Origin: Methylobacter sp.
GTDB lineage: Bacteria; Pseudomonadota; Gammaproteobacteria; Methylococcales; Methylomonadaceae
Direction: 5' to 3'
Length of the DNA: 64,000 bases
NCBI RefSeq assembly: GCF_030680395.1
Contig: NZ_JAUXVR010000010.1
Location: 1-64,000, forward strand
Below, in pieces: positions 32,821-64,000 of the stretch (positions are counted from its first letter, which is position 1; every line of letters starts with the position of its first letter). The position numbers and the translations under genes are program-made. The notes beneath the pieces are model-generated. The model did no database searches, had not been told where the DNA came from, and saw only the letters and a program-made list of their open reading frames with translations.

Positions 32821-33142
32821 TGAGGTATCCCCACGAATTTCCCAAGCTCGTCGTTCCGGCAGGGACAGATATTTGCTCCTGCAATATCTGCATTCCCCAC
32901 ATCCCTGTGGGTTATGCCGGAATTCAGTGCCATGCCTGTCCTGAGCGTAGTCGAAGGGGATGGTAACTTTGGTGACTTTCCGGGTGCTTAATAAAAGCGA
33001 GTGGTATTTTAAAGTTTCACATCCTTGTGACTGGATACTGGCATCCCTGCCGGCATGACGACTTTTCGGCTATGTTGTATATATTGAATGCGCAAAATAT
33101 CAAAACCTGTTGTTTTATAAACTTATTTTATGAGGATACCTC
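32821..33142. mobile_element. MITE-like element, copy 1 (322 bp, with two inner insertions)
   Basis: Ends are TGAGGTATCCCCA (left) and TGAGGATACCTC (right), a slightly decayed inverted repeat. GATCAAAG flanks both sides (32811-32818 and 33145-33152), a likely target-site duplication. No open frame codes for a transposase. Compared with copy 2 it carries two extra segments: 32866-32914, which holds a CAGATATT/AATATCTG hairpin, and 32934-32957, with GTCCTGAGCGTAGTCGAAGG, a motif of another dispersed repeat. Confidence 0.85.
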
Positions 33143-33392
33143 CGGATCAAAGTATATTTTGACCGCCAAAAACCACAGATACCGACGTTCAAAGCTTGCT
33201 TTGCCTGAATAAATGAGAACCGTGAACACACCACTATAGATGCAGACAAAAAGATAAAACACCCAAAGCAGATGCTTTGCGACCCGCCACTATCTCCATC
33301 CTTGAGAAAATTTATCCGATATTGTCATCATATTGCACAGTCTGTTGCTTTATACTCAAGCCCACTAAAACAATCAATTTAACGGATTTATA
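33143..33392. other. Intergenic region upstream of flippase, no gene seen
   Basis: Contains a short palindrome (CAAAGCAGATGCTTTG near 33267-33282) and no credible coding frame. A promoter for the flippase gene should lie here but no clear boxes were found. Confidence 0.3.
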
Positions 33393-45487: not shown

Positions 45488-45552
45488 CTTGCCCCTGCAT
45501 AACACACGCTTGTGATCTTGGATAACGCCATGGATGGCGTGTAGCAGGCGCT
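45488..45552. repeat. CATGGATG-superfamily repeat between rpiA and gspD
   Basis: Contains CCCCTGCATAACACACGC and GCCATGGATGGCGTGTAGCAGG. The GCCATGGATGGC(G/T)TGTA core equals that of the element inserted in waaF at 62373. Confidence 0.6.
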
Positions 45553-48984: not shown

Positions 48985-50113
48985 TGGCCCCTCCCTGTTT
49001 CGACGGCACGGAGGGCGGTTCAGCTGTCGGGATAACGTCAACAGTAATCTGGAACCGCTCCTGTCCAGTAATCCTGTCCTGAGTGACCGGCGACACGAAG
49101 CGGGCATTGGCAAACAACTTAGAGTCTTCCAAAACGCCGATCAATGCTGAAGCCGCGGGCGACTCGCCCTGTAGTTGCAGATGCCCGTCCGAGTATTGCG
49201 CATAGGACAGCCAGGTATCGTCTTTTATTAACGTGCTTAAGGTATTCAGCATATCAACCAGGGTTGGAACCGCATTTTTCTCCGCTATTAATAGTCGTGT
49301 TTCGTCTATTATCGAATCAACCTCCAACTGCAAGGCCTTAACTTCCTTGGCATCCTTTTCTATGGCATCGATTTTTTCCTGTAAAGTATTGATCGTCTGA
49401 TATTCAAACCAGACCGGCAGCACCAGCACGGCGCCCAGCAGTAAAAATATCGCTGCAATCAATCCGGTATAAATCAAACGCTGTGCATTTGCAGGTTTTT
49501 CCCTGAGGTTTTCCGGTAATAAATTGTAGCCGTCATAACGTTGCCCAAGATCATTTGGCGCGGCCTCATAATCGACGAATAACGGCGACATATCCATTGT
49601 CTTGATGTCTTCATACAAGGCATCAAGTGTTTCTCTTGGCGTTAACACCAGCATGACCCTGATTTGACCAGGCTCATGCTCGCCTTCCAGCAGCTTAACC
49701 GCAAAATAAACCTGTTCCGCCTTAAACGGCGTATAGCGATCAAGTTCGTAGGCAACAACCTGCGACAGGTTCTCTTTTACGGCGATCGGCAAGGCAAGCT
49801 CTTTTTGAATCGCTTCGGTTCCTGTTAGTCGTAGTATTAAGTTTGCTTTAGCCACCCGTTCATCTTTGGCTCGCAAGGCTTTATATTGCTCGATACCCGA
49901 GGCGTTGCGCTCCAGTATTGCCAAAGGCTCGGCTTGCTCATTAAGCATGTAGGTCAACGCTAACTGATTGTTTTCGGGACGAACGATAATGAAGCCCTGC
50001 TTCTCGTTAACCAGCTGCCTGATTTTTTCGGGCACCAAAAAGTCAAGCTCGCGCAGCCACCAGCGGAAGAACTTTTTAACATCCAAATCAATTGTCGAAT
50101 TCAGGCTCGGCAT
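48968..50113 (-). CDS. gspL: Type II secretion protein GspL (PilN-type)
   Basis: 381 residues: an N-terminal cytoplasmic actin-like domain (about 1-215) that docks on GspE, one membrane helix near 230-250 (LIYTGLIAAIFLLLGAVLVLP), a coiled-coil and a C-terminal PilN-like ferredoxin fold. Shows the fused GspL form with PilM- and PilN-like halves. Overlaps gspK by 26 bp and gspM by 17 bp. Confidence 0.85.
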   Translation of the reverse strand: MPSLNSTIDLDVKKFFRWWLRELDFLVPEKIRQLVNEKQGFIIVRPENNQLALTYMLNEQAEPLAILERNASGIEQYKALRAKDERVAKANLILRLTGTEAIQKELALPIAVKENLSQVVAYELDRYTPFKAEQVYFAVKLLEGEHEPGQIRVMLVLTPRETLDALYEDIKTMDMSPLFVDYEAAPNDLGQRYDGYNLLPENLREKPANAQRLIYTGLIAAIFLLLGAVLVLPVWFEYQTINTLQEKIDAIEKDAKEVKALQLEVDSIIDETRLLIAEKNAVPTLVDMLNTLSTLIKDDTWLSYAQYSDGHLQLQGESPAASALIGVLEDSKLFANARFVSPVTQDRITGQERFQITVDVIPTAEPPSVPSKQGGANGQDR

Positions 50114-51095
50114 ACTGTCTCACTAGCAACTCATCTTGTTCATCTACAAACAATGAACCGTCAACTGCGGTATTGCGCTGCCATTTCAGTATCTGAAACG
50201 GCGACGTCCCCGTCGGACTATCCGGTCTTTTTATCAGCGCTTTGAGGGTGGCTGTTGTGCCATCCTCCAACTGCGCTTCGGTAACAACCGTAAGCACCCC
50301 TTTTTGTTCTGTTCCGTCATTGATCGCTATTGCAGGTGCGTTCTCACCCGTTTGCCCGGACGCCATACCGGGATCAGAGGCTACCGGAATTACCGGCACG
50401 GGCAAGCCGGTTATCGCGCTTACACGCCGGGCCGCAATATATTGGTCTATCAATCGGACATCCATTCCCGGCAATACATATAAAACTTCTTTGGCCGCCT
50501 GAGTCACATCAACCTTGGGCTGTCCCGAGTAGACCGTGACCAGGCTGTCAATCCACTTGAAGACCTGTTCATTCATGCCCAATACCAGCTGTAATTCCTC
50601 AATAGACTGAAACGGCTTATTGCGCGGCTGGTAGCTTAAGCCTGCGTCTTTATATTCTTCTTTCTCCGCGCCCTCTATATGCACCAGATCATCCGCATCG
50701 CGCCAATCGAGAATCGCATTCACCAACCGGGTTTGCAACTGGGCATCAACAGGCGCATGAACCATGAGCCCTTTTAACAGGGTCTGGTCGGCACTATTTA
50801 AATCCACTTTGCCTGTTTCAGATAGCAGCCGGATGCGGACTTTCGAATCCGCGTAATTTATTTGGTAAATACTGCCATCGGTACGCCACCGTTGTAGTTG
50901 ATCGGGATGCATTGCCATCAATTCGGCAATGGCAAGGCCTGATTCTGCGACCGCCGCGGCCTTGGCATTATTACTGCTGCCGGTCACAATGCCCGCTTCC
51001 CGCCGCATGCTAAGAGCAAAACTACCGGCCATAATGGTCAGCAGGCTCAGCACCCACAAAACCAGAACAAGGGCAAAGCCGCCAGACCTGATCAA
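50088..51095 (-). CDS. gspK: Minor pseudopilin GspK
   Basis: 335 residues. The prepilin leader is short (MIRSGG before FALVLVLWVLSLLTIMAGSF). The large globular part has a helix-hairpin-helix-like segment, GKVDLNSADQTLLKGL. GspK lacks the conserved Glu5 of the other pseudopilins and here too the position is not Glu, as expected for the tip subunit. ATGA overlap with gspJ. Confidence 0.88.
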   Translation of the reverse strand: MIRSGGFALVLVLWVLSLLTIMAGSFALSMRREAGIVTGSSNNAKAAAVAESGLAIAELMAMHPDQLQRWRTDGSIYQINYADSKVRIRLLSETGKVDLNSADQTLLKGLMVHAPVDAQLQTRLVNAILDWRDADDLVHIEGAEKEEYKDAGLSYQPRNKPFQSIEELQLVLGMNEQVFKWIDSLVTVYSGQPKVDVTQAAKEVLYVLPGMDVRLIDQYIAARRVSAITGLPVPVIPVASDPGMASGQTGENAPAIAINDGTEQKGVLTVVTEAQLEDGTTATLKALIKRPDSPTGTSPFQILKWQRNTAVDGSLFVDEQDELLVRQYAEPEFDN

Positions 51096-51910
51096 TTGCC
51101 AGCCTCTAACGGCGCCGCGTTTACTCCAGTCTCTGCACCTGCAACTTTAAGCGCTATAATCATTTCCGGCCAAAAAACGCCATTTGTAGTGCTGATGTTG
51201 ATTTTGACCAATTTGGGTTGAACATCTTTTTCCAACCACTCCTTCTGCCAACTGTTTTTGCCCGCATTACCGGCATCATCCGCATCATCGGTAGCACCAA
51301 AATAAGCAAGCTCAAAATCGCTTACATGCCTTAGCAAAATCACCTCTTCCTGATTCCATTCTTCGCCCTCGGTTACCGGAAAAAACGGCGTTAGCGTCAC
51401 TTTGATAACCTGCTCTTTATCTTGTTTTTGCAGCTGTATTGAAAACAGCTGCATACCTGCTCTACCGACGCTTGCAGGAAAAACCGAGACAAACTGCAAG
51501 GACTCCTTTTTGCCTTGAAAAGAGAATGTTTTGTCCTTGTTTCCCGCCGCCGCGGCATTCCCATCATCCCTGCCGATCGCCGCGCCGGTTCCCGACTGGC
51601 TTGAGACATCCGCATCATCCCCGTCGGTAAAATCATCCCATAAAGGGGTGGCTGAGGATAAATGCCGCTGAAAAAAGTTAGAGACTACGGCGACCTCATT
51701 CACTTCGGCTATTTTATTTTCTCCCTGCTCCCAGCTTTGGGCGCAAATTCCCAAGCTACTGAACAATAACACCACCATAATGCTTAATAATGTCATTGCT
51801 ATAAGAACCTCAATCAGCGTGAAGCCCGTCGCATATCTTAACCCCGGCGCGGCACTGATGACATGGTGTGCAATACGTACCTTGCCAGCTTGAACCTGAG
51901 CTTTCCTCAT
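51092..51910 (-). CDS. gspJ: Minor pseudopilin GspJ
   Basis: 272 residues. The prepilin segment ATGFTLIEVLIAMTLLSIMVVLLF has the cleavage Gly before Phe and Glu5, but the leader before it is long (about 29 residues). A low-complexity insert rich in Asp/Gly/Ala (about 88-120: DDADVSS, QSGTGAA, GRDDGNAAAAGN) contains 27 bp identical to a segment in waaC. GspJ forms the tip with I and K. It is longer than usual for the family (about 200), partly because of that insert. Confidence 0.86.
   Translation of the reverse strand: MRKAQVQAGKVRIAHHVISAAPGLRYATGFTLIEVLIAMTLLSIMVVLLFSSLGICAQSWEQGENKIAEVNEVAVVSNFFQRHLSSATPLWDDFTDGDDADVSSQSGTGAAIGRDDGNAAAAGNKDKTFSFQGKKESLQFVSVFPASVGRAGMQLFSIQLQKQDKEQVIKVTLTPFFPVTEGEEWNQEEVILLRHVSDFELAYFGATDDADDAGNAGKNSWQKEWLEKDVQPKLVKINISTTNGVFWPEMIIALKVAGAETGVNAAPLEAGN
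51577..51603. mobile_element. Short mobile-like repeat inside gspJ
   Basis: These 27 bases are identical to 61521-61547 in waaC. On the minus strand they contain AAGCCAGTCGGGAACCGG. Here they are read as SQSGTGAA, in waaC in another frame as QASREPARR. Related, less exact copies are in gspE and waaF. Confidence 0.75.
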
Positions 51911-52320
51911 AACATTTTATTCGTCAGTTTCAAGGTTATTAACTCAACCTGCCTGCCGGCGGCTCTGGCATCATCACCCCAGCTTACACTAACCTTAACC
52001 TTAAAAAGTACCACCGGTATGATTGTGACATCCAAATTTTCAGCCGTAAACTGAAACGGGCTAACAGATACCCGCCAATGGTATTTCCCATTTTCCAGTC
52101 CGGTCGCTTCGCCTTGCTGCAAGGGCGCTTCCACGCCTGTTTGGGCTATTAAAGACTCGGCAACCTGAACGGCTGCGGTATATTCCTCGGCTACGCTGGC
52201 GGTATTGACGCCGGCAGAAAATATCTTCAGCAAAATCCCTAATGCCAGCGCCAGAATTGAAAATGCAATCAGGATTTCCAGTAAAGAAAAGCCGCGCTGT
52301 TTATTCATTTTCAAGTTCAA
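51907..52320 (-). CDS. gspI: Minor pseudopilin GspI
   Basis: 137 residues. Prepilin leader MNLKMNKQRG and FSLLEILIAFSILALALGILLK with Glu5. Typical size for GspI. The internal ATG at 52308 gives the common MNKQRG leader and is an equal alternative. Overlaps gspJ by ATGA. Confidence 0.88.
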   Translation of the reverse strand: MNLKMNKQRGFSLLEILIAFSILALALGILLKIFSAGVNTASVAEEYTAAVQVAESLIAQTGVEAPLQQGEATGLENGKYHWRVSVSPFQFTAENLDVTIIPVVLFKVKVSVSWGDDARAAGRQVELITLKLTNKML

Positions 52321-52813
52321 CCTGGCCGGTTAACCAGTTTATGTCCATTTTCCACACTGTCTGCCCCCGCTCCAGGGTGATTCTTCCTCCCGTGGAGGAG
52401 CCGTCGGCAAAAAAACGGATGTTTGCCGTGCCTTTTCCGGTTAATTCGCTTTGCGCAGTCACCACGGTGATATCAATACCCTCGGGTATTTGATAAAGCT
52501 TGTCCCGACCGCTGACCCTGTAGTTGTTGTTGCCAAGATCAAGAGCAACCGTGGTTTCCTGGTGGGTCATTAAAGCCTGCCCTCTGGCATAACGCAGCGC
52601 TGAAACTATATCTCTTGCCGCCGCCTTTATTTCTGTAGAGTCGCTTCCCGATGACAGGTTAAGGCCGATAACCGAAAAACCCAGCACCACAACAAAAAGC
52701 ACCACGACCAGTTCCAGCAGAGTAAAGCCTCGCTGAGACTGCATTGCCACGCAGCGCGTAGGAATGAGACGAACCTTTTGCCTTTCGTCCTTCGCCTTGC
52801 GTCTTACTCCCAA
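52301..52813 (-). CDS. gspH: Minor pseudopilin GspH
   Basis: 170 residues from the upstream ATG, or 147 from the ATG at 52744, which gives the standard leader MQSQRG before FTLLELVVVLFVVVLGFSVIG. The extra N-terminal part (RRKAKDERQKV) is encoded by the GGCGAAAGG repeat, so the shorter form is more natural. The body has the H-type pseudopilin fold with a C-terminal WKMDINWLTGQVELENE. Confidence 0.85.
   Translation of the reverse strand: MGVRRKAKDERQKVRLIPTRCVAMQSQRGFTLLELVVVLFVVVLGFSVIGLNLSSGSDSTEIKAAARDIVSALRYARGQALMTHQETTVALDLGNNNYRVSGRDKLYQIPEGIDITVVTAQSELTGKGTANIRFFADGSSTGGRITLERGQTVWKMDINWLTGQVELENE
52774..52806. repeat. GGCGAAAGG-family repeat at the gspG end / gspH start
   Basis: CCTTTTGCCTTTCGTCC and TTCGCCTTGCGTCTTA. 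It differs from 53223-53255 at only 5 of 33 bases and covers the gspG stop and the upstream gspH start codon region. Confidence 0.65.
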
Positions 52814-53268
52814 CTAACAATATCCTGATCTTCGCCTTCGCCGCCTTCCTTGCCATCCGCCCCCAAGGTGAACAAATCAAACTTCCCGTGCTCGCCGGGA
52901 GCAACATAATGATATTCCTGTTGCCATGGATCCAGCGGCATTTTGGCTTTGCGTAAATAAGGGCCATTCCAGCGTTTGGCGTTGTCGGGCGATTCAATTA
53001 GCGACTTCAGGCCTTGTGCGGTGGTCGGATAGTTGCCCAAGTCCAGTTTGTACATATCCAGGGCGGCCGACAGGTCTTCAATTTGCACTTTGGCCGCTTT
53101 GGTTTTGGATTCGCCCATATGCTTCATGACCTGAGGTCCGACTATTCCGGCCAGCATCGCAATAATGCCCAGCACGACCAACAACTCAAGCAAGGTAAAA
53201 CCCCGCTGATGCAAAGCCCCGGCCTTTTGCCCTTCGCCTTTCGCCTTGAATCTTAATATCTGTTTCAT
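52804..53268 (-). CDS. gspG: Major pseudopilin GspG
   Basis: 154 residues. The T2SS pseudopilus main subunit. Prepilin site RG before FTLLELLVVLGIIAMLAGIVGPQVM with Glu5, then the calcium-binding C-terminal part with DPWQQEYHY and FDLFTLGADGKEGGEG. The start MKQILR has GAGGAAA upstream. The leader is about 24 residues, longer than the usual 6-10, because residues 7-17 (FKAKGEGQKAG) are encoded by a dispersed repeat. Confidence 0.95.
   Translation of the reverse strand: MKQILRFKAKGEGQKAGALHQRGFTLLELLVVLGIIAMLAGIVGPQVMKHMGESKTKAAKVQIEDLSAALDMYKLDLGNYPTTAQGLKSLIESPDNAKRWNGPYLRKAKMPLDPWQQEYHYVAPGEHGKFDLFTLGADGKEGGEGEDQDIVSWE
53223..53255. repeat. GGCGAAAGG-family repeat inside the gspG leader
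   Basis: CCTTTTGCCCTTCGCC and TTTCGCCTTGAATCTTA lie in frame between the GspG start codon and the prepilin cleavage site. The same repeat ends gspG at 52774-52806, so the gspG gene is flanked by direct copies. Confidence 0.65.
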
Positions 53269-53286
53269 AATGTAGTATTTCCTCGT

Positions 53287-54501
53287 TTAAAAAGCCAAAT
53301 CGTTAACACTCAGAATAGCCAGCAGAATCGATACGATGATGCCCGCAATCATCAGTCCTAATGAAATTATCAACGCCGGTTCCAGCAACGCCAGCATGCG
53401 CTGTATCGCCACCCTAAGCTGCTTATCGTAAATAGTTGCCACTCGCAGCAGCATTTCTTCCAGACGTCCTGTCTCTTCACCCATTTTTATCATTTGCATG
53501 GCCATTTTGGGGAATATTCCTTTTTCCAGTAGCGCATCCGACATGTTTTTGCCCTGCCTTAACTGCTCTTCGGTATCCTGAATGGCCGCCGCCAAAACCA
53601 GGTTATCCACTGTTTCGCGGACAATCACCAGAGCCGCCAGTATCGAAACGCCATTACCCAATAAAGTGCCCAGCGTTCGGCTGATGTTGGCGGTCTCCTT
53701 GTTCAAAATAATCGTCCCGGCCAGAGGCAGTTTTAAAAAACGGGCGTCCCAGACCTTCTTTTTTACCGGATCGGCCATCTGGAGATTCATATAACCGGTG
53801 ATGAATACAACACCCAAAATCAATACCCACCAATAGCTTTGCAGCCATTCGGCCAGTCCCACCACGATCTGCGTCGATACCGGCAGCGCCTTGCCCGCGC
53901 TTTCAAACATTTCGGAAAATTGCGGCACCACAAAAGTCAGCATCACAAACAAAGAGGCCAATGACATAACCAGCAAGATGGCCGGATAGATCAATGCGGT
54001 GCTGACCGTTTCTTTTAATTCCCGGGAGCGCTCCAGATATTCGGACAAACGCACTAATACTTCGCCCAAACTCCCCCCCGCCTCACCGGCGCGTATCATG
54101 TTCAGATAAAACTTGCTGAAAATGCCGGACTGCTTTTCCAGCGCATCGGCCAAGGTGGAGCCGCCTTTGACTTTATCCAGAACTCTGCCGATCAACCTGG
54201 TCACCCGTTCGTTGTCTTCGGTCAAGTCCATCAATACCAGCAAAGACTTATCCAAAGGCAAACCGGACTCCAGCAACGTTGCCAATTCGCCGGTGAACAA
54301 GGAAATATCTTTTTGCGATAGTCTGGACTGTTTTAAACCCAGCCTTAAGCCCAAAAACGACTTGGCGCTGGCCGGTATCACACGAATAGGGATATAGCCT
54401 TCCGTCTGCAAAGTTGCAATCAGCTGCCGATCGTTAACCGCGTCCCTGACGCCTTCTTCAGTCTCGCCCAGACTATTAATCGCTTTATACGCAAATAACA
54501 T
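53287..54501 (-). CDS. gspF: Type II secretion inner-membrane protein GspF
   Basis: 404 residues with two GspF cytoplasmic domains (about 70-190 and 270-390) and three membrane helices (near 170, 220 and 375). Signature features are LLESGLPLDKSL and the repeated MIRAGEAGGSLGEVL / MIKMGEETGRLEEML. Platform protein working with GspE. TAATG junction with gspE. Confidence 0.95.
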   Translation of the reverse strand: MLFAYKAINSLGETEEGVRDAVNDRQLIATLQTEGYIPIRVIPASAKSFLGLRLGLKQSRLSQKDISLFTGELATLLESGLPLDKSLLVLMDLTEDNERVTRLIGRVLDKVKGGSTLADALEKQSGIFSKFYLNMIRAGEAGGSLGEVLVRLSEYLERSRELKETVSTALIYPAILLVMSLASLFVMLTFVVPQFSEMFESAGKALPVSTQIVVGLAEWLQSYWWVLILGVVFITGYMNLQMADPVKKKVWDARFLKLPLAGTIILNKETANISRTLGTLLGNGVSILAALVIVRETVDNLVLAAAIQDTEEQLRQGKNMSDALLEKGIFPKMAMQMIKMGEETGRLEEMLLRVATIYDKQLRVAIQRMLALLEPALIISLGLMIAGIIVSILLAILSVNDLAF

Positions 54502-56291
54502 TATGTTTCCGACGTTACCCGCAACACTTCTTCCAGGGTTGTAATACCTTGCAGGGCTTTGACCAAGCCGTTTTCATACATCGTGGTCATGCCTTCTTCA
54601 ATAGCGAGCCTCTGAATAGCCCCGGCTTCTTCATGCGCCATAATCAATTTACGGAGCGGATCGGTCATTTGCAGAAATTCAATGATCGCCAGCCGTCCAC
54701 GGTAGCCCAAGCCCCCGCAAGACGCACAGCCGACCGGCTTGTACAAGACAATATCGCCTTCCGCGCCAGTTCCCGGCTGACTTGCGGTATATCCACCCTC
54801 CTTGGCGATATTCGAAGCAAACCGTCGTAACTTCATGCCCTCAATGATGTCCGAGGGAGGTGTATAGGGTTGCTTGCATTCAGGACACAGTTTTCTTACC
54901 AGACGTTGCGCCAATATGCCGTTGACGGTGGAAGTGAGCAGGTATTCTTCCAGCCCCATATCCAGCAACCGGGTGACACCGCCGGCCGCGTCGTTAGTAT
55001 GCAGCGTCGATAACACCAAATGCCCGGTTAACGCCGATTGCACGGCGATTCTTGCGGTCTCCAGATCGCGCATCTCGCCGATCATAATCACGTCGGGATC
55101 TTGCCGCACGATAGAACGCAACGCCGAGGCAAAGGTCAGGCCTATTTGCGGCTTGGCCTGAATCTGGTTGACCCCTTCCATCTGGTATTCCACCGGGTCT
55201 TCAACGGTGATGATTTTTCGCTCGGACGTATTGAGCTGCTTTAGCGCGGCATACATCGTGGTCGATTTTCCGCTACCGGTCGGACCGGTAATCAGGATGA
55301 TGCCGTGCGGCTGAGACAGTACCTCGATAAACTGCTGTAGATGCTTGCCGGAAAAGCCCAGCGCGGCAAAATCCAGCACCGTCGTTTCCTTGTCCAGCAA
55401 ACGGATCACCACGCTTTCGCCGTACATCGTCGGTATCGTCGAAACCCGCAAATCCAGCTCTTTGCCCAACATTTGCACCTTGATGCGGCCGTCCTGAGGC
55501 AGGCGGCGCTCGGCGATGTTCAGCTTGGCCATGATCTTGATACGTGAAATCACTGCTGCCGTCGATTTGACCGACGGCGCATCAATATCTTTCAATACGC
55601 CATCGACGCGCAGCCTGACTTTCAGGGATTGTTCAAAAGGCTCAATGTGGATGTCCGAGGCTCGGGTTTCAATCGCCCGTTGCATGATCAAATTGACCAT
55701 TTTGATCACCGGCGCTTCACTGGCCAAGTCTTTCAAATGCTCCAGATCTTCTTCGCGCAGATCATCGACGCTCAGATCGTCGGCCAGCTTGTCCGTTTGC
55801 GGGTGGCTTTCGCCATACTGCACTTCCAGCGCGGCATCAATCTCCGAAAGCAGACCGACTCTGGGGATAATGTTTTTTCCGGTCGCCAATTTTAACGCAT
55901 CAATGACAAACCGGTCTTCCGGATCCATCAAGGCAACGGTAATGTTGTTGTTGTTATTCAAACCGATAACATGATAATTTTTTAAAAAGCGCAACGGCAC
56001 GGTTTCCGGCAATTGCATTTCCAGCGGATATTGATCCGGCGCAACCTTTTCAAACCGGCCCGATTCAACAAAAGCATCGGCTACGTCCAGCTCCGAACAC
56101 AGCCCGAGCTTAACCAGTAACTGCGGCACAGTTTCCGATACCGATGTTTTTTGCACGCGCTCAACTTTTTTTAATTCTGTGACGGAAAGTTTCTGCTTAT
56201 CCTGCAAAACACTTAGCAACGATTCATATGCCATTATTCTGGAAAAGCCGGTAGGTATTGTATTAGTGTATAAAGAATAGAGTGTTAGCAT
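54501..56291 (-). CDS. gspE: Type II secretion ATPase GspE
   Basis: Cytoplasmic hexameric ATPase that drives pseudopilus assembly. 596 residues (577 if it begins at the ATG at 56234). N1/N2 domains (about 20-190), then the ATPase with Walker A GPTGSGKST, Asp box and Walker B VIMIGEMRDLET, and the zinc domain with CPEC and CASC. Between the two CxxC pairs is an insert (KEGGYTASQPGTGAEGD) encoded by a copy of a repeat. First gene of the operon. The genes F to D follow on the same strand. Confidence 0.95.
   Translation of the reverse strand: MLTLYSLYTNTIPTGFSRIMAYESLLSVLQDKQKLSVTELKKVERVQKTSVSETVPQLLVKLGLCSELDVADAFVESGRFEKVAPDQYPLEMQLPETVPLRFLKNYHVIGLNNNNNITVALMDPEDRFVIDALKLATGKNIIPRVGLLSEIDAALEVQYGESHPQTDKLADDLSVDDLREEDLEHLKDLASEAPVIKMVNLIMQRAIETRASDIHIEPFEQSLKVRLRVDGVLKDIDAPSVKSTAAVISRIKIMAKLNIAERRLPQDGRIKVQMLGKELDLRVSTIPTMYGESVVIRLLDKETTVLDFAALGFSGKHLQQFIEVLSQPHGIILITGPTGSGKSTTMYAALKQLNTSERKIITVEDPVEYQMEGVNQIQAKPQIGLTFASALRSIVRQDPDVIMIGEMRDLETARIAVQSALTGHLVLSTLHTNDAAGGVTRLLDMGLEEYLLTSTVNGILAQRLVRKLCPECKQPYTPPSDIIEGMKLRRFASNIAKEGGYTASQPGTGAEGDIVLYKPVGCASCGGLGYRGRLAIIEFLQMTDPLRKLIMAHEEAGAIQRLAIEEGMTTMYENGLVKALQGITTLEEVLRVTSET
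54753..54809. mobile_element. Short mobile-like repeat inside gspE
   Basis: Read on the minus strand it gives CCAAGGAGGGTGGATATACC and GCAAGTCAGCCGGGAACTGG, aligning with the copy in waaC. It is bounded by AATATCGCC and GGCGATATT, a 9-bp inverted repeat. The gene remains open. Confidence 0.65.
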
Positions 56292-56959
56292 TATCCAATC
56301 AATAGGCGTTACTACCTATCAAATGAACCTGCTATTTAGAGGAATACTCGATATTAAAATCTCAGGTATCTTTTAATTCCAAGTGATTCTCTTTGGGATT
56401 AAAGCTTTCTGTTTTTAGCTTGGACTGTCTTGTTGTGGAGCCAAAACCCTGTTTTTTGTTCATAACGACCATAAAAAATTTGCCTGCTCTGATGCCTTAG
56501 TCGAATAATATTTATATAGATTAATGATTAAGTCCGGCTTAAGCGCATTGTTGATACCAAAACGCGCCACCTGTCCCTGTCCCATCTTGCGTCTCTTATC
56601 CGAACGGATATTTCCAACTTTTCCGCGCATTACCGGGCCTGGTTTTGTGCCGTCTCCGGGAAAAAATCCGGTATTATCGTCAGGGTTATCATCGAATCCA
56701 AAGAACGACGTCAGGTTACATTACTGCAAAAGAAAAAGTAATCTGATCAATCTGCCCCCTTTTACCCTTCAAATAAACAAACACGTACGCTTGTTGAAAT
56801 TGCCGCGCAGCCGGCAAGTAGACTTGACAAGCCATAATCAGAGGGCGTAAAAATCAAGCTCTCGCGTCATTACGCTCCGTTAGGGTAATGATCGTTTACT
56901 GGATACGTAGGTCACCCGATAATCCGGTGACTGTTCAAACAGTTAAGGAGAAAGCGATC
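56292..56959. other. Intergenic region between gspE and the epimerase fusion
   Basis: 668 bp. Nothing here looks coding; the plus-strand frame at 56524-56850 has poor composition. Both flanking genes are divergent, so their promoters should lie here. No clear boxes or repeats were recognised. Confidence 0.35.
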
Positions 56960-59467
56960 ATGAGTAAAAAAGACGACATCGTTTTGCGAAGAAACGAAGA
57001 CCCGATAAAAGAAAAAACTGTCGGTGCCGCAAAAGACATCCTATTAATTACCGGCATCGGCGGCTTCCTCGGGCTTTCACTCAGCAAAGCACTGGCACAA
57101 GATTATTGTGTAGTCGGTTTAGATCGGGAATCCGATTGCGCAAAATATCCTGATTGCATTCCCTGCGATTTAACCTCGGACAGTTCGGTCGGAAAGGCCA
57201 TGGACACGTTGCGAAAGCGCTTCGGCAAACGCTTCATCTCGGTCATACACTTGTCCGGTTATTATGATTTCACCGGCGAACCTAATCCGCTCTATGAAGA
57301 GGTCAATGTCAAAGGCACCCGCCGCCTGCTACAGGCTCTGCAAGACTTCGAGATCGAACAGTTCATTTATGCCAGCACCATGCTGGTTCACGCTCCCACC
57401 GAACCCGGCGTACCGATCACCGAAGATTGGCCGTTACAGCCCAAGTGGGCCTATCCGCAGTCAAAGCTTGAGACGGAGCACGTCGTCCAAAACGAGCATG
57501 GCGCCATCCACTATGTGCTGCCCCGCATCGCAGGCGTATACACGGATCATGTCCAGCCGCCCACACTGGCGCATCAGATACAGCGGATTTACGAACGCCA
57601 GTTTACCAGCCGTGTGTTCGCCGGCGATATCTCGCACGGGCAAGCGTTTATTCATATCGACGACCTGATTGACGCTGTCGTCTGTATCGTCCGGCGGCGT
57701 AATGAATTACCTGCTGAAACCCCATTGCTGCTGGGTGAACCATCGACGATGGGCTATGAAGCGCTGCAAAATGAACTTGGGTTTCTGATTCACGGCGAAA
57801 CATGGGCAACGGAAACGCTGCCGAAAATGTTTGCCAAAGTCGGCGCTCATTTGCAAGAGCACATGGAGATTGTTATCCCGGATTCTATCGACAAAGGCGA
57901 AAAACCTTTTATCAAGCCGTTTATGGTTGACCTGGCTGATGATCATTATGAGCTGGATATATCCAGGGCTCGTCAGCTGCTGGATTGGGAACCGAAACAT
58001 TCGCTACGCGACGCCCTGCCGTCGATTATCAAAGAGCTCAAAACCGACCCCTTGGGCTGGTATAAGCGCAATAGACTGACGCCGCCCGAATGGGTCGAAA
58101 CCATGATCGCACAGACTGAGTCTGCCGATCATTTCATCGAAGCCTATAACCAATCGTTGCGCGATGAGCGGCGGCAAAATCTTTGGGCGCATTTTCTCAA
58201 CATGAGCATGGGTACCTGGCTGATGACCAGTCCGCCCATTTTGGGTTATCAGGACCGGGCCATGATAATCAACGATCTGGCAAGCGGCGCCCTGGTGTTT
58301 CTGTTCGGAGCGCTGTCGCTGTCGCCGCGCATGGCCTGGGCGCGTATCGCTAACGCAGCGGTAGGGCTGTGGCTATTGTTCGCGCCCCTGGTGTTCTGGA
58401 CGCCAAGCGCTTCGGCTTATCTGAACGATACTTTGGCAGGTTTCCTGGTGATCGGCTTCGCAATTCTGTCGCGCCCCATGCCCGGCATCGGCCTTGTGGC
58501 ACGTATGGCCGGTCCCGACGTCCCGCCTGGCTGGGATTACTGCCCGTCGTCGTGGACCCAGCGCATACCGATCATCTTCCTGGCATTCATAGGGTTTTAT
58601 ATATCCCGCTATCTTGCTGCCTACCAATTGGGGCATATCGGAAACGTCTGGGATCCCTATTTCGGCGATGGCACTGAACGCATCATCACTTCCGATATAT
58701 CAAAAGCATGGCCGGTTCCCGACGCCGGTCTCGGCGCTGTGACTTATGCACTGGAGATACTCACCGGCATTATAGGAGGCCGCGATCGCTGGCGCACCAT
58801 GCCCTGGCTGGTGGTTCTGTTCGGCGTGATGATTGTGCCCTTGGGCATCGTCAGCATCTTCTTCATCATCATCCAGCCCATTCTGATCGGAACCTGGTGC
58901 ACACTGTGCCTGATTGCTGCTGCGGCAATGCTCATCCAGATTCCTTACTCTGTCGATGAACTGGTTGCCACCGGCCAGTTTCTGGCGGAACGCCGACGCA
59001 AAGGCAAGTCGGTTATCCTGGCCTTCTTGCGCGGCGACACCATGGAAGGCGGTCGCAAAATGGAGGCTGAGAATTTTGAAAAGTCGCCTTGGACTGTGCT
59101 CAAGGACATGCTCGGCGGCGGCGTCAATGTTCCTTGGTCGTTGGTTTTAAGTATGGCCATCGGGGTTTGGTTAATGTGCACCCGGCTGATTTTCGCTACC
59201 CAAGGCGAGCAGGCAAACAGCGATCATTTGATCGGTGCTCTGGTCATTACGGTTGCTATTACCGCGCTGGCGGAATCCGCCCGCCCTGCACGCTTTATCA
59301 ATATACTGTTGGCTATTCCTCTAATGACCGCTCCCTGGATGCTCGACGGCGGCAGCCTTGGCGCCGATTGGGCTGGCCTCGTGGCAGGTTTGCTGCTAAT
59401 TCTCTTGAGCATACCTCGCGGCAAGATCGAGAACCGCTACGGGGACTGGAGCCGGTATCTGGTTTAA
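56960..59467 (+). CDS. Epimerase / SPW-repeat / VKOR-like fusion membrane protein
   Basis: 835 residues from the ATG at 56960, with AAGGAG nine bases upstream. The first 350 residues are an NAD-dependent epimerase (TGIGGFLG near 32, YASTMLVH, YPQSK). From about 415 on it is membrane-bound: an SPW-type repeat (GTWLMTSPPILGY and NDLASGALVFLFGAL), then a VKOR-like helical part with the redox motif CTLC (residues 647-650), and a second SPW-type repeat (GVWLMCTRLIF). The second cysteine pair usual in VKOR is not seen in the SDISKAWPVPDAGLG loop. Possibly a thiol-redox or lipid-linked sugar enzyme; substrate unknown. Confidence 0.82.
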   Translation: MSKKDDIVLRRNEDPIKEKTVGAAKDILLITGIGGFLGLSLSKALAQDYCVVGLDRESDCAKYPDCIPCDLTSDSSVGKAMDTLRKRFGKRFISVIHLSGYYDFTGEPNPLYEEVNVKGTRRLLQALQDFEIEQFIYASTMLVHAPTEPGVPITEDWPLQPKWAYPQSKLETEHVVQNEHGAIHYVLPRIAGVYTDHVQPPTLAHQIQRIYERQFTSRVFAGDISHGQAFIHIDDLIDAVVCIVRRRNELPAETPLLLGEPSTMGYEALQNELGFLIHGETWATETLPKMFAKVGAHLQEHMEIVIPDSIDKGEKPFIKPFMVDLADDHYELDISRARQLLDWEPKHSLRDALPSIIKELKTDPLGWYKRNRLTPPEWVETMIAQTESADHFIEAYNQSLRDERRQNLWAHFLNMSMGTWLMTSPPILGYQDRAMIINDLASGALVFLFGALSLSPRMAWARIANAAVGLWLLFAPLVFWTPSASAYLNDTLAGFLVIGFAILSRPMPGIGLVARMAGPDVPPGWDYCPSSWTQRIPIIFLAFIGFYISRYLAAYQLGHIGNVWDPYFGDGTERIITSDISKAWPVPDAGLGAVTYALEILTGIIGGRDRWRTMPWLVVLFGVMIVPLGIVSIFFIIIQPILIGTWCTLCLIAAAAMLIQIPYSVDELVATGQFLAERRRKGKSVILAFLRGDTMEGGRKMEAENFEKSPWTVLKDMLGGGVNVPWSLVLSMAIGVWLMCTRLIFATQGEQANSDHLIGALVITVAITALAESARPARFINILLAIPLMTAPWMLDGGSLGADWAGLVAGLLLILLSIPRGKIENRYGDWSRYLV

Positions 59468-59566
59468 GCGGGGGCTTCGGCGATTGTTTCAGTAATTCAG
59501 GGATAATCGTCGGTGCAGGGAATTTTAATCTTTACCCCGCATGAGACTGGCAAGCGAATCCGGTCA

Positions 59567-59819
59567 TGAGGTATCCCCACAAATTTCCCAAGCTCGTCGT
59601 TCCGGCAGGGATGCCGGAATCCAGTGCCATGGATGGTATAACTTTGGTGACTTTCCAGGTGCTTAATAAAAGCGAGTGGTATTTTAAAGTTTCACATCCT
59701 TGTGACTGGATACTGGCATCCCTGCCAGCATGACGACTTTTCGGCTATGTTGTATAAATTGAATGCGCAAAATATCAAAAACCGATTGTTTTATAAACTT
59801 ATTTTATGGGGATACCTCA
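59567..59819. mobile_element. MITE-like element, copy 2 (253 bp, intact ends)
   Basis: Perfect 13-bp terminal inverted repeats: TGAGGTATCCCCA (59567-59579) and TGGGGATACCTCA (59807-59819). A 10-bp direct repeat GAATCCGGTC flanks it (59556-59565 and 59820-59829), the expected target-site duplication. The interior is non-coding and includes the CCGGCAGGGAT palindrome. It is the undisturbed form of the copy at 32821. Confidence 0.92.
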
Positions 59820-59933
59820 GAATCCGGTCTATATGAAATGCCGGGCATAAAAAATCATGCCCGATTTACCCGGCTGGCAACAGCCTCTCATAGTAAGGCC
59901 GCTTGCTGCGGCACACTGTTATGCTGCTCCTGC

Positions 59934-60050
59934 ATAAGCCATAGGACATGGTAAAAGCTTCCGCTCCACCCTTAATACCTACATTCATGTAGGCAATGCA
60001 GATATTGACAACGCCATGGATGGCGGGGAATAGAATAATGCAGGAGCAAA
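59934..60050. repeat. CATGGATG-superfamily repeat, inverted pair
   Basis: GCTCCTGCAT near 59936 faces ATGCAGGAGC near 60038. In between are CCTACATTCATGTAGG and GCCATGGATGGC. It follows MITE copy 2 and precedes the small membrane protein gene. Confidence 0.65.
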
Positions 60051-60121
60051 TACTTTCGATGCAACCGTAGCAGCGAATCTACGCTACGCCTTACCACTTT
60101 AAAACCTGATTGGAGGTATGT

Positions 60122-60457
60122 ATGTTCTCGTTCTTTGCACATCTAATTTTATCAGCAGGCATGTTGCTGCTCATGGCCCATTTCGTCCGCGGCGTTCAGG
60201 TGGAGGGCTGGGGGGCCGCGCTCATTGGCGCGGTGGTTCTCGGTTTCGTGAATGCCGTCGTCCGACCGGTCATGGTTTTTCTTACCTTGCCACTCACGGT
60301 TATCAGCTTCGGGCTCTTTCTGCTGGTGATCAACGCGCTCATGCTTTGGTTGATGGCGGCACTGGTTCCGGGCATCCGTGTTCAAGGATTTTGGCCCGCA
60401 TTGATGGGAAGCCTGGTACTCACGTTACTCAATCTTGCCGTTGAACTTTTCACATAG
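60122..60457 (+). CDS. Small four-helix membrane protein, phage-holin-like family
   Basis: 111 residues from the ATG at 60122 with GGAGGT upstream; a TTG at 60110 is unlikely. Four hydrophobic segments (about 4-22, 28-48, 55-78, 88-110), with GFVNAVVRPVMVFLTLPLTVISFGLFLLVINALMLWL, matches the family described as 4-TMS phage holin superfamily IV. Such proteins are mostly chromosomal and of unknown role; no phage genes are near. Confidence 0.85.
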   Translation: MFSFFAHLILSAGMLLLMAHFVRGVQVEGWGAALIGAVVLGFVNAVVRPVMVFLTLPLTVISFGLFLLVINALMLWLMAALVPGIRVQGFWPALMGSLVLTLLNLAVELFT

Positions 60458-60830
60458 CTCCTTAGACCGGGCAACAGTTTTTCGTTGCCCGACGTTCCGG
60501 CGCTTGGCAATCGGATAGGGTGATAAATGTCGAGTATAAGCAGCATGCCTGACCGACTGAGTGGACTATGTTTTTTGTCATGCGCATGATTCAGAGCGTT
60601 TATAAACATCACTCGGGCTGTTACCCCAAGTCAGGAGCTTTCCAGCCCGGCCGTTTCCTTTTACCGGCCGAGAGCCGGAGCTTCAACACAAGGCGCGTAG
60701 CGGAGCGATCGGATTTTACTTTTAAATTTATTACACATTCAAACGCCTACATTTTAAATTAAGCGTGATAAGTAAAATAATTTATAAGAGATTTCTGGCG
60801 TAGCGCGATTGCCCTGAAGTTCTTCTTTAT
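60458..60830. other. Intergenic region with a weak hairpin
   Basis: CGGGCAAC (60468-60475) pairs with GTTGCCCG (60484-60491) just after the small membrane protein gene, without a T-run behind it. The rest shows no credible coding frame. Confidence 0.4.
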
Positions 60831-61880
60831 TCATGTCGACAACAAAGACCTCGCCTGCTCAATAATCGCCTGTTCATCAATATCCTTAATCGAATAATCC
60901 TGCTTGTTGAGTTTATATGGATTAACGATTGAAGCGGACTTAATCACCTTGTTGATGTCGGTCTGGTAAACCCGGCTGACCGGCGTCGGGCCGAAGATGG
61001 TGATTGACGGCCTGTTTAATCCCCAGGCCATGTGGGTCGGGCCGGTATCGTTGCCGATCAGTAGATCGGCCTTGGCTATCAACGCTTTAAGGCTGTTCAA
61101 ATCCAGTTTGGGCATGACTTTGATCCGCTCGGATTGCGTCGCCATCCACTCTGCGGCGACTTTTTCCTGCTCGCTGCCCCAGATGACCAGGCAGTTTTGC
61201 TGCAAGGCCTCTGCTATTTTGACAAACTTGGCGGCCGGATAATTGCGGCTGTCCCAGGTTGAACCGATCACCAGCACAATATTGCTCCGGTCTTTTGACA
61301 GGAAATCGTATATGTGCGGGTCTTCGTTGTTAAAAAACAAAAACGGCTGTTTGTTAAGGATGTGCTCTGTGGTGATGTTAATGCCTAAAGGGCTGGACAA
61401 TATCAACGCATTTCTGTCGATGGTGTTGGCATCGTATGCGCAGGCCACTTTGACATCGTAAAACCATGATGCGGCTTTTTCCCTGATCGAATCGGCATCG
61501 AATCCGGCGATGCGTGTTCCTCGCCGCGCCGGTTCCCGACTGGCTTGCGGCATGCACACCCTCCATGGCGATACCAGTTTGGCGGTGACCGCCGATTTAA
61601 TCAGCCCCTGGGCATCAATCACCAGGTCATAGTTATTGCTTGCATGGCTGCGTATCTTTTTAAGCTGCGCAACTATACCGGCCTTGTTGGTTTTCAAGGC
61701 TTTCAGGTTAACCGTCAGAATGTTATCGATGTCGGGATTGTTTTTTAAAACTTCGGAGAAGCGTTCTTCAACGATCCAGTCGATCTGAATTTCCGGGGAA
61801 TGCGCCTTGATAAACTGCAACGCAACCATCGCATGAACGATGTCTCCCAGAGCCGAGAGTTTTACGATCGCAATTTTCAC
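60831..61880 (-). CDS. waaC: LPS heptosyltransferase I
   Basis: Adds the first heptose to Kdo2-lipid A. 349 residues, family GT9. N-terminal KIAIVKLSALGDIVHAM contains the catalytic Asp; the C-terminal DTGPTHMAWGLNRPSITIFGPTPVSRVYQT is the ADP-heptose site. Around residues 104-118 an insert (WRVCMPQASREPARR) breaks the usual LVS-GTRIAGFD run and is encoded by the short mobile-like repeat. The gene is still in frame. ATGA overlap with waaF, which comes first. Confidence 0.92.
   Translation of the reverse strand: MKIAIVKLSALGDIVHAMVALQFIKAHSPEIQIDWIVEERFSEVLKNNPDIDNILTVNLKALKTNKAGIVAQLKKIRSHASNNYDLVIDAQGLIKSAVTAKLVSPWRVCMPQASREPARRGTRIAGFDADSIREKAASWFYDVKVACAYDANTIDRNALILSSPLGINITTEHILNKQPFLFFNNEDPHIYDFLSKDRSNIVLVIGSTWDSRNYPAAKFVKIAEALQQNCLVIWGSEQEKVAAEWMATQSERIKVMPKLDLNSLKALIAKADLLIGNDTGPTHMAWGLNRPSITIFGPTPVSRVYQTDINKVIKSASIVNPYKLNKQDYSIKDIDEQAIIEQARSLLST
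61520..61572. mobile_element. Short mobile-like repeat inside waaC
   Basis: On the minus strand it reads ATCGCCATGGAGGGTGTGC, then ATGCCGCAAGCCAGTCGGG and AACCGGCGCGGCG. Bases 61521-61547 are identical to 51577-51603 in gspJ. Flanked by ATCGCC on both sides. Confidence 0.75.
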
Positions 61881-62980
61881 TTACGCCCTGACTGGGTAAC
61901 TGTTATATATTCAAGCACTTGATCCGGCGTGATACCGGTCAGGCAATGGCTATGCCCTAAGGGGCATTCGCGCTTGAAGCAGGGCGCGCAATCGAGGTTC
62001 AACGAGATAATCCGGGCCTTGTCGTTCAGCGGCGGCGTAAAGCCCGGATCCGATGAGCCGTAAATGGCGATGATTTTTTTGTCCAACGCGGCGGCGACAT
62101 GCATCAGGCCGGAATCGTTGCTCACTACGGTATTAGCCAGCGACATCAAATCGACCGCCTCGGCCAATGAGGTTCTGCCGGTAAAGTCGGTACAAAATCC
62201 TGAGGCTTCTCTGTTGATTTGTGCGGCGTCGGCTTTATCCTTATCGGAGCCGAACAGCCAAACCTGCCAGCCCTGGTCGATTTTATGCCGGGCGACTTCG
62301 GCGTAATACTCGATCGGCCAGCGCTTTGCCGGGCCGTACTCGGCACCGGGGCATAAGGCCAGGATTTTTATCGCCATGGATGGTGTGTATGCCGTAAGTC
62401 TGTCGGGAGCAGACTCGGCGGCTGATGGTGTTAATTTGAATTTATCGATGACTGCCTGTTGCCGGTCTTTGCTGATCGTTAGCGCAGGCTTTGGGCATAC
62501 CGGCGGCAGAGCTGCATCAACTGGCAGACCCAACGCGACGAAACGCTGCACAGTCATGGTCAGCAGGCTTTTATCCAGCTTTCTGGCATCGTTAAGCAGT
62601 CCCCAGCGGCATTCGCCGATATACCCGGTACGGACGGGAATATTGGCGAAGAAAGGAGGTAATGCCGACTTCCATGAGTTCGGCAGCAGGATGGCTTGGT
62701 CGTAGCTTTCCGAACGCAGGCTCAAGCCCAGTTTGATGCGCTCCATCAGGCCAAGCTTACCGCGCGGTAATGGCATGGCGATAGCTTTGGTCACTTCGGG
62801 CATTCTTTCCAGCAGGGATAATGTCCATGACGGAGCCAGTACGTCAATCCGGCAATTCGGGTGGGTATTTTTCAAGGCGATAAACAGGCTTTGCGCCATC
62901 ACCATATCGCCGACCCAGGAGGGACCGACGACTAAGATTTTTTTTGTGCCGTTGGGGGCATTTGTATTTACGCTAGTCAT
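61877..62980 (-). CDS. waaF: LPS heptosyltransferase II
   Basis: Adds the second heptose of the inner core. 367 residues. KILVVGPSWVGDMVMAQSLF at the N-terminus and LALCPGAEYGPAKRWP plus NDSGLMHVAAALDKKIIAIYGSSDPGFTPP are family hallmarks. Around 187-203 an insert (SAAESAPDRLTAYTPSMA) is encoded by a repeat in the opposite orientation to that in waaC. With ilvE upstream, the order ilvE-waaF-waaC is known from other gammaproteobacteria. Confidence 0.94.
   Translation of the reverse strand: MTSVNTNAPNGTKKILVVGPSWVGDMVMAQSLFIALKNTHPNCRIDVLAPSWTLSLLERMPEVTKAIAMPLPRGKLGLMERIKLGLSLRSESYDQAILLPNSWKSALPPFFANIPVRTGYIGECRWGLLNDARKLDKSLLTMTVQRFVALGLPVDAALPPVCPKPALTISKDRQQAVIDKFKLTPSAAESAPDRLTAYTPSMAIKILALCPGAEYGPAKRWPIEYYAEVARHKIDQGWQVWLFGSDKDKADAAQINREASGFCTDFTGRTSLAEAVDLMSLANTVVSNDSGLMHVAAALDKKIIAIYGSSDPGFTPPLNDKARIISLNLDCAPCFKRECPLGHSHCLTGITPDQVLEYITVTQSGRK
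62370..62425. mobile_element. Short mobile-like repeat inside waaF (inverted orientation)
   Basis: The plus strand reads TCGCCATGGATGGTGTGTAT, then GCCGTAAGTCTGTCGGGAGC and AGACTCGGCGG. This aligns with the minus-strand copy in waaC, so the element here is reversed relative to the gene. Confidence 0.65.
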
Positions 62981-62986
62981 TTCGCC

Positions 62987-63169
62987 GTCATTCCGGCAGG
63001 TATTAAAAACAGATCAAAGAGTGTCTTCATGTAGCTAAAAACGGTTAGCGAAATCTGAAGTTACCATCCATGGCAACTGGATCCCGGCACAAATCTGTCT
63101 GGAACAGATTTGCATTAACTCGAAGGACGTCAGGCAGGATAGCCTGACGTGATTCCCTGCCGAGATGAC
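62987..63169. repeat. CCGGCAGGGAT-family palindrome, second copy
   Basis: The left arm GTCATTCCGGCAGG and the right arm GATTCCCTGCCGAGATGAC are imperfect. The middle has CCATCCATGGCAACTGGATC as in the copy at 20824, plus extra hairpins (CAAATCTG/CAGATTTG and CGTCAGGC/GCCTGACG). Confidence 0.65.
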
Positions 63170-63198
63170 GCGTTGTTGAAATACCGACGCCTTGCTTT

Positions 63199-63264
63199 TT
63201 CACCACGAAGATCACGAAGAAAGAAACATAAAACTTCGTGATCTTCGTGTCTTCGTGGTTAAAT
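63199..63264. repeat. CACCACGAAG palindrome (copy D)
   Basis: TTCACCACGAAGATCACGAAG pairs with CTTCGTGATCTTCGTG and CTTCGTGGTTAA around an A-rich loop. It lies 16 bp past the ilvE stop. Confidence 0.8.
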
Positions 63265-63279
63265 TTTTTAATCCAATTA

Positions 63280-63999
63280 TTAGGCGACGTAAGTCAACCA
63301 ATCGGCATGATCGTCTCTGCGTCCATGCACATAGTCGAAATACAACGATTGCAGTTGCTCGGTGATCGGCCCACGACTGCCGGAACCGATTTCGCGATTA
63401 TCCAGTTCCCTGATCGGCGTCACTTCGGCCGCAGAACCGGTAAAGAACGCTTCATCGGCAACGTAAATCTCATCGCGGGTAATGCGTTTTTCAATCACTT
63501 CATAGCCCTGCTCTCTGGCAACGGTCATGACCGTATCGCGGGTAATGCCTTCCAATGCGGAAGTGGTTTCGGGCGTGTAAATTTTACCGTTACGCACGAT
63601 AAACAGGTTTTCGGCGCTGCCTTCCGCCGCGAAGCCTTCATGATCCAGCATCAATGCTTCATCGTAGCCATTGGCGCGCGCTTCTTGTAACGCCAAAATG
63701 GAATTGATGTAATTGCCGTTGGCTTTGGCTTTGCACATGGTGCTGTTGTGATGGTTGCGGGTATAAGATGACGTGCGGATACGGATGCCCTGCTCTATAC
63801 TTTCCGCGCCCAAATACGCGCCCCACGACCATGCGGCAACCATGACATGCACTTTCAGGTTATCGGCTCTCAAGCCCATGCCTTCAGAGCCTAAAAAACA
63901 CATGCTGCGGATATAGGCGCTGTCCAGGTTGTTCTTGGCGACCGCATCGCGCTGAACTTGATTCAGCTCGTCTTTGCCGTAAGGCATTTTCATATTCAT
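63280..63999 (-). CDS. ilvE: Branched-chain amino acid aminotransferase (5' end outside window)
   Basis: PLP-dependent last step of valine, leucine and isoleucine synthesis. At least 239 residues are present; the family has about 305, so the N-terminus lies beyond the right edge. The segment MCKAKANGNYINSILALQEARANGYDEALMLDHEGFAAEGSAENLF includes the PLP-lysine region and the class IV signature. C-terminal TGSAAEVTPIRELDNREIG is also typical. Confidence 0.92.
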   Translation of the reverse strand: MNMKMPYGKDELNQVQRDAVAKNNLDSAYIRSMCFLGSEGMGLRADNLKVHVMVAAWSWGAYLGAESIEQGIRIRTSSYTRNHHNSTMCKAKANGNYINSILALQEARANGYDEALMLDHEGFAAEGSAENLFIVRNGKIYTPETTSALEGITRDTVMTVAREQGYEVIEKRITRDEIYVADEAFFTGSAAEVTPIRELDNREIGSGSRGPITEQLQSLYFDYVHGRRDDHADWLTYVA

Positions 64000-64000
64000 G

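Follow-up and report, generated by a model that had tools for sequence, protein, structure and literature searches.

Palindromic Repeats Inside Protein Genes

Palindromic repeats that are read in frame as part of proteins are best known from Rickettsia and Wolbachia. The Rickettsia palindromic elements (RPE) are described as repeats of 105–146 bp (about 150 bp in a review) with 12-bp terminal repeats, which lie in frame in many genes and occur in conserved genes as well as between genes (PMC2229807, PMC10969869), and in-frame fusions to genes are also described for enterobacterial repeats (PMC2759123). Here, we report the same behavior for a much smaller repeat of free-living methanotrophs, termed family A, of which four copies lie in a stretch of 64,000 nucleotides from Methylobacter sp. 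(NCBI RefSeq assembly GCF_030680395.1, contig NZ_JAUXVR010000010.1, positions 1 to 64,000; this whole stretch is “the window” in what follows). Comparison with related genomes makes it very probable that the window copies represent a non-autonomous mobile element of 51 bp with two hairpins, which inserts at TA^NNG (with the caret at the point of insertion) without target duplication and can thereby add 17 residues, which the host proteins probably tolerate.

Four Copies of a 51-bp Unit in the Window

Each copy forms, together with its flanking TA, a block of 53 bp (51577–51629, 54758–54810, and 61521–61573 on the minus strand; 62369–62421 on the plus strand), and each lies in frame in a different gene, the names of which come from a preliminary description of this DNA and from homology. 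In gspJ (51092–51910, minus strand, 272 aa), the unit occupies 51577–51627 on the minus strand (TA at 51628–51629) and is read as ..DADVSSQSGTGAAI, its left half being decayed. The unit in gspE (54501–56291, minus strand, 596 aa), at 54758–54808 on the minus strand (TA at 54809–54810), lies between two Cys pairs and is read as ..IAKEGGYTASQPGTGAEG. That in waaC (60831–61880, minus strand, 349 aa) is found at 61521–61571, also on the minus strand (TA at 61572–61573), and is read as SPWRVCMPQASREPARR, while the unit in waaF (61877–62980, minus strand, 367 aa) lies at 62371–62421 on the plus strand, opposite to its gene (TA at 62369–62370), and is read as AAESAPDRLTAYTPSMAI.

The preliminary description had reported four copies in these genes, with 27 bp identical between gspJ (51577–51603) and waaC (61521–61547) and read there in different frames, a reversed copy in waaF, open genes, and insert positions in predicted linkers. 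All of this was recovered: the four genes are uninterrupted over the lengths given above, the insert of GspE separates its two Cys pairs, that of WaaC precedes TRIAGFD, and the full copies are longer than described, extending over the 53-bp blocks. A scan of the window with the 57-bp waaC stretch gave 44 identities in gspJ, 43 in gspE, and 44 in waaF, the next-best place having 32; the window read backward without complementing gave at most 29. The host genome comprises 4.36 Mb, and its nearest named relatives by GspE (90–92% identical) are L106 (Methylobacter sp.) and L111 (Ca. Methylobacter titanis), both of them metagenome-assembled genomes.

Filled and Empty Sites

L111 is the only filled one among 14 relatives that cover the site in GspE; the gap measures exactly 17 residues in 12 of the others and 16 in L117. 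At the DNA level, 51 bp are absent in L106, L107, L110, L116, and L131. Three relatives were compared for WaaC, where the insert is found only in the window (L111 and L131 are shorter by exactly 51 bp, L106 by 45 bp), and three for WaaF, where the window has one copy, L111 two tandem copies, and L106 and L131 none. The GspJ linker contains degenerate copies in the window, L106, and L111, and none in L131 or in more distant species. The preliminary description had proposed a small mobile palindromic unit that adds peptides to proteins, and this is supported by the empty sites and by the many further copies described below: orthologues without exactly this insert exist for GspE, WaaC, and WaaF, and at none of these three were the inserted residues seen as ancestral sequence in distant relatives. 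Old low-complexity linkers of ancestral proteins might in principle have converged on similar DNA, and the GspJ linker does look repetitive in the window and two relatives. Such an origin is, however, exceedingly improbable, as it is contradicted by the exact 51-bp empty sites, by the occurrence of the same DNA in different frames, on both strands, and in unrelated genes, and by the covariation of the hairpin columns (see below).

A search with joined flanks over the genus yielded nine usable sites; a tenth, RapA, dropped out because its right flank was incomplete. In this search, “empty” means a length within 3 bases, and the counts are lower bounds, which mostly leave out matches covering one flank. 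Uninterrupted genomes number at least 12 for an IscS-like gene, 8 for a DUF58 gene, 7 for GshB, 15 for ValRS, 6 for CapD, and 11 for the site L050. Among the matches listed, six sites have both empty and filled relatives, and the filled ones are longer by exactly 51 bases at five of these; at the sixth, ValRS, the insertion is +54 (G021). The other length differences among the matches listed (9, 15, 18, 21, 24, 30, 39, and 87) are all multiples of three, and retrieved sequences bear out the assignment as filled or empty. Altogether, about a dozen sites were seen filled in one species while another species has them empty. At the GshB site, which is located at the C-terminus, the close relative G021 (L246) is empty with a few extra bases left, and G007, G018, G005, G020, and G011 are filled. 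G021 has most other filled sites in common with the window’s own genome, G000, and its empty gshB looks like a loss by deletion that left a few bases behind.

Unit Architecture

The length of family A, exactly 51 bp or 17 codons, follows from the 51-bp spacing of tandem copies and from the empty sites. Its rough consensus is TCGCCAGGGATGGTGTGTATGCCGCAAGCCnGyCGGGAACnGGCGCGGCGA; with TA in front, it fills the 53 columns of an alignment of the four window copies and ten others of the same genome. The terminal repeat is only 5 bp long (TCGCC/GGCGA), and two separate hairpins are predicted within the unit. For the right hairpin, changes on both sides occur in 5 of 10 pairs of the 14-sequence alignment, and both the paired cells and the covariation lie above all 500 shuffles. 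Among 62 distinct A copies (family C, introduced below, left out), the right-hairpin pairs 30-46, 31-45, 33-43, and 35-41 lie above all 1000 column shuffles, one shuffle in 1000 scored at least as high as the left-hairpin pair 5-16, and the remaining 11 of 16 pairs, most of them nearly invariant, are not above all shuffles; because the copies are kin, these shuffle figures are not probabilities. The left hairpin is less well supported than the right one. A different repeat with the same left-hairpin core (ACGCCATGGATGGCGTGTAG) is present in the window at 14384–14409 and 45523–45548 and may be a modular half or an ancestor of the unit. An Rfam scan of window positions 50001–64000 gave no match.

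The family A consensus contains no stop codon in any of its six frames. A unit of 17 codons that is free of stops in all frames can enter a gene in any frame and orientation, with the full-length protein being kept.

Target Site and Tandem Growth

Target choice was analyzed at 47 independent A sites, which represent 105 raw copies after merging of shared flanks, with families B and C left out; a filter for tandem partners removed no A site, and the set still includes at least one second member of a tandem (L068). The two bases preceding the unit are TA at 45 of these sites (GA and TG at one each), and the third base after it is G at 45 of 47, or at 41 of the 43 sites that are not followed by a second unit, compared to 33% for a G in this position behind the TA dinucleotides of genes. 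TA is found at the left end only, not at the right. The empty DUF58 sites already read TTTA^CCG (5/5), and the empty ValRS sites have TA in 5/6 and G in 6/6. As read from these flanks, the target of family A is TA^NNG, without target duplication; the empty sites and copy flanks together show that the unit is placed between TA and NNG.

Since the unit itself starts as TA^TCG when preceded by TA, i.e., with another TA^NNG, an insertion there would give the observed tandems with GA before the older copy. The junctions thus point to a new unit probably landing at the TA^TCG of an older one. The tandem junction of family A (e.g., L008, GGCGATCGCC) contains GCGATCGC, which is described as the HIP1 octamer of cyanobacteria (PMC4390886); the likeness is probably a coincidence.

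Position in Genes

The surroundings were inspected for 52 of the 54 matches in the window’s own genome, all families included, and for 24 of 25 candidate loci from relatives (L079 fell below the identity cut). Open reading frames (ORFs) with coding-like codon use contain 47 of the 52 and 23 of the 24 copies, respectively. At the independent A sites the share is 42 of 47, compared to 86.5% for 2705 blocks drawn at random from these loci, so that family A neither seeks nor avoids genes. The 42 ORF sites are mostly internal (28), with 9 in the first 45 codons and 5 in the last 15. A Pfam scan of 40 further ORFs at copies matched a family in 38 cases at E ≤ 0.001, including ValRS, RapA, an SLT transglycosylase, ComEC, a squalene-hopene cyclase, a glutathione synthetase, and a CapD-like enzyme, as well as a Mur ligase, CobS, and ScpA, which carry copies of family B or C. 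In a few of the matched ORFs, the copy is placed at the likely start or beyond it, as in the IscS-like gene of L028.

With respect to their genes, 21 of the 42 sites are oriented with and 21 against the direction of reading, and the frames are (+,1) 19, (−,2) 11, (−,1) 7, (−,0) 3, (+,0) 2, and (+,2) 0. A selection of frames was considered and dropped: a p value of 7e-5, obtained with families and orthologous sites mixed, became 0.057 after cleaning and 0.074 after two family C sites were taken out, and at this value we claim none.

The even orientation bears on the possibility that the unit is a functional RNA or protein-binding motif under selection in many mRNAs. The left hairpin has a conserved NGGA loop (CANGGATG), which we take to resemble a CsrA/RsmA site. 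However, with both orientations in use, half of the mRNAs carry the reverse complement of the unit, and the sites are polymorphic between species, which leaves such a function quite improbable as the reason for the repeat.

Spread Among Genomes

Copies were searched with a covariance model, R1, which also picks up the related families B and C. In the window’s own genome, 54 matches reach E ≤ 0.01, with families A, B, and C counted jointly, and all 22 other genomes of the genus have between 3 and 107, so that the further copies to be expected of a mobile unit are present by the dozen in most of them. The lowest counts are those of G004 (3, weak, best E 3.1e-7), G016 (3), and G014 (7), the highest that of G011 (107). 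The same search covered two further genera within the family, with one genome each: G023 has 4 matches (best E 5e-17) and G024 none; a third genus (G288) has one at 5.5e-7, and elsewhere in the order there are four (E 0.006–0.01). In a sample of the class, 11 of 369 genomes, own included, match at E ≤ 1e-5. Plasmids, phages, and E. coli (blastn with one consensus) as well as viral contigs (one exact pattern) gave no match at this sensitivity. By the distribution of its copies, family A is spread within one genus and polymorphic among its species. Within the genome G019, contig C2 (1.54 of 4.85 Mb, or ~32% of the genome) carries only 4 of 51 R1 matches.

The relatives in Gammaproteobacteria outside this group mostly lack a long frame across the unit. 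Of 14 such blocks inspected, two lie in frames of at least 500 codons, namely the block of L189, which may be upstream of the true start, and a pair in L424; the others lie in frames of at most 281 codons. The latter pair, from G185 of a distant gammaproteobacterial family, is an exception to the rule: at L424:2856-5783, two tandem 17-residue units are in frame between QWFI and TMDRAGLRD of a protein that reads as an isoleucyl-tRNA synthetase. Related two-hairpin units of ~51–54 bp, some in tandem and with no long frame across them, occur at L186–L188, L425–L427, and L429 (G151, G267, and G366); these probably represent arrays between genes and belong to a family that is either older or a sister.

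Sister Families B and C

Family B (GACTGCC..GCGACC) is likewise exactly 51 bp long, with a tandem spacing of 51 bp, and has a clean empty site (L096 compared to L277, with 24 of 25 bases identical on each side). In MurE, the B site is uninterrupted in 17 genomes and filled in G019, and an 18th genome, G012, differs by 3; an NDH-like gene is also uninterrupted in 17 genomes. The base before the unit is C in 42 of 42 copies, for which a 1-bp target duplication (C) is possible. Family B is present in 22 of 23 genomes of the genus, own included, and in G023. Matches of the model R2 rest on sequence, and for its right structure only 1 of 17 pairs has changes on both sides, which is not beyond shuffles. 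Copy numbers of A and B correlate with rho 0.82, a value that is inflated because R1 also collects B and C copies.

Family C was found nested in family B: in the NDH-like gene of G021 (L444), a family C stretch of 51 bp (a count by hand) splits a B unit, and in CobS of G000 (L098), a C unit lies inside a B unit, apparently at the same place. The nesting suggests that the site is preferred or that the two units form a composite of 102 bp and move together.

How the Element Might Move

Comparison among genomes demonstrates precise insertion, target preference, spread, tandem growth, and nesting, and suggests an enzyme acting in trans that would move family A. We know of no mover for RPE. The one-sided choice of target, the lack of duplication, and the two hairpins resemble the action of single-strand (HUH-type) transposases.

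Several observations weigh against the reading of the window copies as a mobile, frame-neutral element with a TA^NNG target. No mobilizing gene was found or linked to the copies, and a search of the own genome for a half-element or autonomous parent gave no confident hit, partial R1 matches being at E 0.26 or weaker. Copies are found at 3 of 50 loci with a Y1_Tnp domain, compared to about 1.9 expected from copy density, and the number of A copies does not track the Y1 count (rho 0.23, p 0.28). Orientations in G019 are mixed, with no clear bias by eye and with replichores not cleanly resolved. The target is imperfect as well: the L050 empties have TA in 3/6 and G in 2/6, and the IscS, GshB, and CapD empties lack TA. 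Among the matches listed, 6 of 7 GshB empties exceed the joined own flanks by one base and the seventh falls short of them by two, so that the net difference there is 50 (or 53) and not 51. As to adaptation to genes, six open frames also occur in 9.4% of dinucleotide shuffles of the consensus, frame usage at the 42 ORF sites shows no clear departure from the offer of TA..G in genes (p 0.074), and only 29 of 42 B copies lie in ORFs, with 8 of the 13 others in two tandem arrays.

A more specific proposal is that of an IS200/IS605-like miniature element, in which a Y1 (HUH) transposase in trans would recognize the two hairpins, cut after TA, and join without duplication. It has several attractions: there is no duplication, the left flank is one-sided (TA for A, C in 42/42 for B), hairpins lie near both ends of the unit, Y1_Tnp is encoded by 21 of 23 genomes of the genus, the two without it (G004 and G014) having few copies, and the number of B copies correlates with the Y1 count (rho 0.51, p 0.014). 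Nevertheless, we regard this proposal as possible but doubtful. G016 has six Y1 matches and only 3 R1 matches, and G274 matches the element with no Y1_Tnp match at E ≤ 0.001. The mixed orientations in G019, read by eye, may speak against it because a single-strand transposon should show a bias, and the missing proximity of copies to Y1 genes and the missing correlation for A argue against it too. Moreover, a G three bases downstream of the insertion is not expected for this class. The RAYT (Y1_Tnp) proteins in particular were rejected as the cognate mover of family A, on the grounds of neither proximity nor copy-number correlation. Some Y1 loci (L229 and L239) contain hairpin arrays of another sequence.

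Predicted Consequences for Host Proteins

An AlphaFold2 model of the window GspE, computed with 34 orthologues, reached a mean pLDDT (predicted local distance difference test) of 79.6. Insert residues 499–509 are below 50, with a helix up to 497 before them, a strand at 516 after them, and confident surroundings. On the basis of this model, predicted for GspE only, the inserted peptide probably forms a disordered loop or a terminal tail that its host proteins tolerate. A single-sequence fold of WaaC (pLDDT 35.6) was not used.

Because A, B, and C are all 51 bp long, each insertion is frame-neutral. This leads to a broader suggestion, to which we give slightly less than even credence: the three related families might be a class adapted to life inside protein genes, which adds 17-residue peptides genome-wide, essential proteins included, and which may move by an undescribed mechanism that recognizes two hairpins and TA^NNG. 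Outside relatives vary more in length, a contrast that became weaker on a recount and lowered our credence: the 31 R1 matches of the class sample outside the own genome are 50–66 bases long, and 12 of them span the same 53 columns as family A (TA included).

The element makes two questions testable, namely by what route repeats of so small a size move, and how large a share of random 17-residue insertions proteins tolerate in nature, in which folds and at which positions. Annotators should bear in mind that mobile DNA may lie behind a gap of exactly 17 residues between orthologues from Methylobacter. Other dispersed repeats of the window (TCATTCCGGCAGGGAT.. type) are located at 20825–20970, 32821–33148, 59567–59824, and 62969–63089, and a repeat of 153 bp is present at 32964–33116 and 59639–59791 with 95% identity.

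Comparison With Known Repeat Families

REP/REPIN sequences are small hairpin repeats that occur by the dozen in a genome and form tandem arrays. Family A does the same, but REP/REPIN are extragenic and tied to a RAYT gene, whereas family A lies in genes (42 of 47 sites) and has no link to Y1 genes. Miniature elements derived from IS200/IS605 share with it the lack of duplication, the choice of the left flank, and hairpins near both ends; a parent transposon with the same ends was not found in the own genome. The small dispersed repeats of cyanobacteria are very short mobile repeats that nest in one another, and in this they are alike, by their general description and not by sequence; we know of no 51-bp frame-neutral design among them.

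The repeats ERIC/RU-1, RU-2, RU-3, and Correia/NEMIS (Delihas 2007) have open frames that are sometimes fused in frame to genes, as is the case here (PMC2759123, PMC2229807). According to these descriptions, they are 103–168 bp long and, as a group, primarily intergenic, with TA termini and, in several of them, a target duplication, in contrast to family A with no duplication and most of its sites in ORFs. A TA target duplication at both ends, as in ERIC, Correia, and RUP-type miniature inverted-repeat transposable elements, is absent from family A. A literature search, with subscription papers mostly outside its reach, found no description of such an element in Methylobacter.

The closest likeness is that to RPE, which the preliminary description had drawn and which stands as an analogy of behavior: both are short palindromic repeats in frame in unrelated protein genes. 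It does not extend to membership, as described size, architecture, and host set family A apart. RPE are described with 105–146 bp and 12-bp terminal repeats (PMC2229807), compared to 51 bp and 5 bp here, and their repeat closes a long stem, whereas family A has two separate hairpins. With a third to half the length of the Rickettsia/Wolbachia-type elements, family A adds a target rule, TA^NNG, and two sister families, and it comes from Methylobacter-like bacteria, where exact empty sites and polymorphism between species could be seen. Family A thus works like RPE but is a different element in a different host, shorter, built of two hairpins, and from another lineage.

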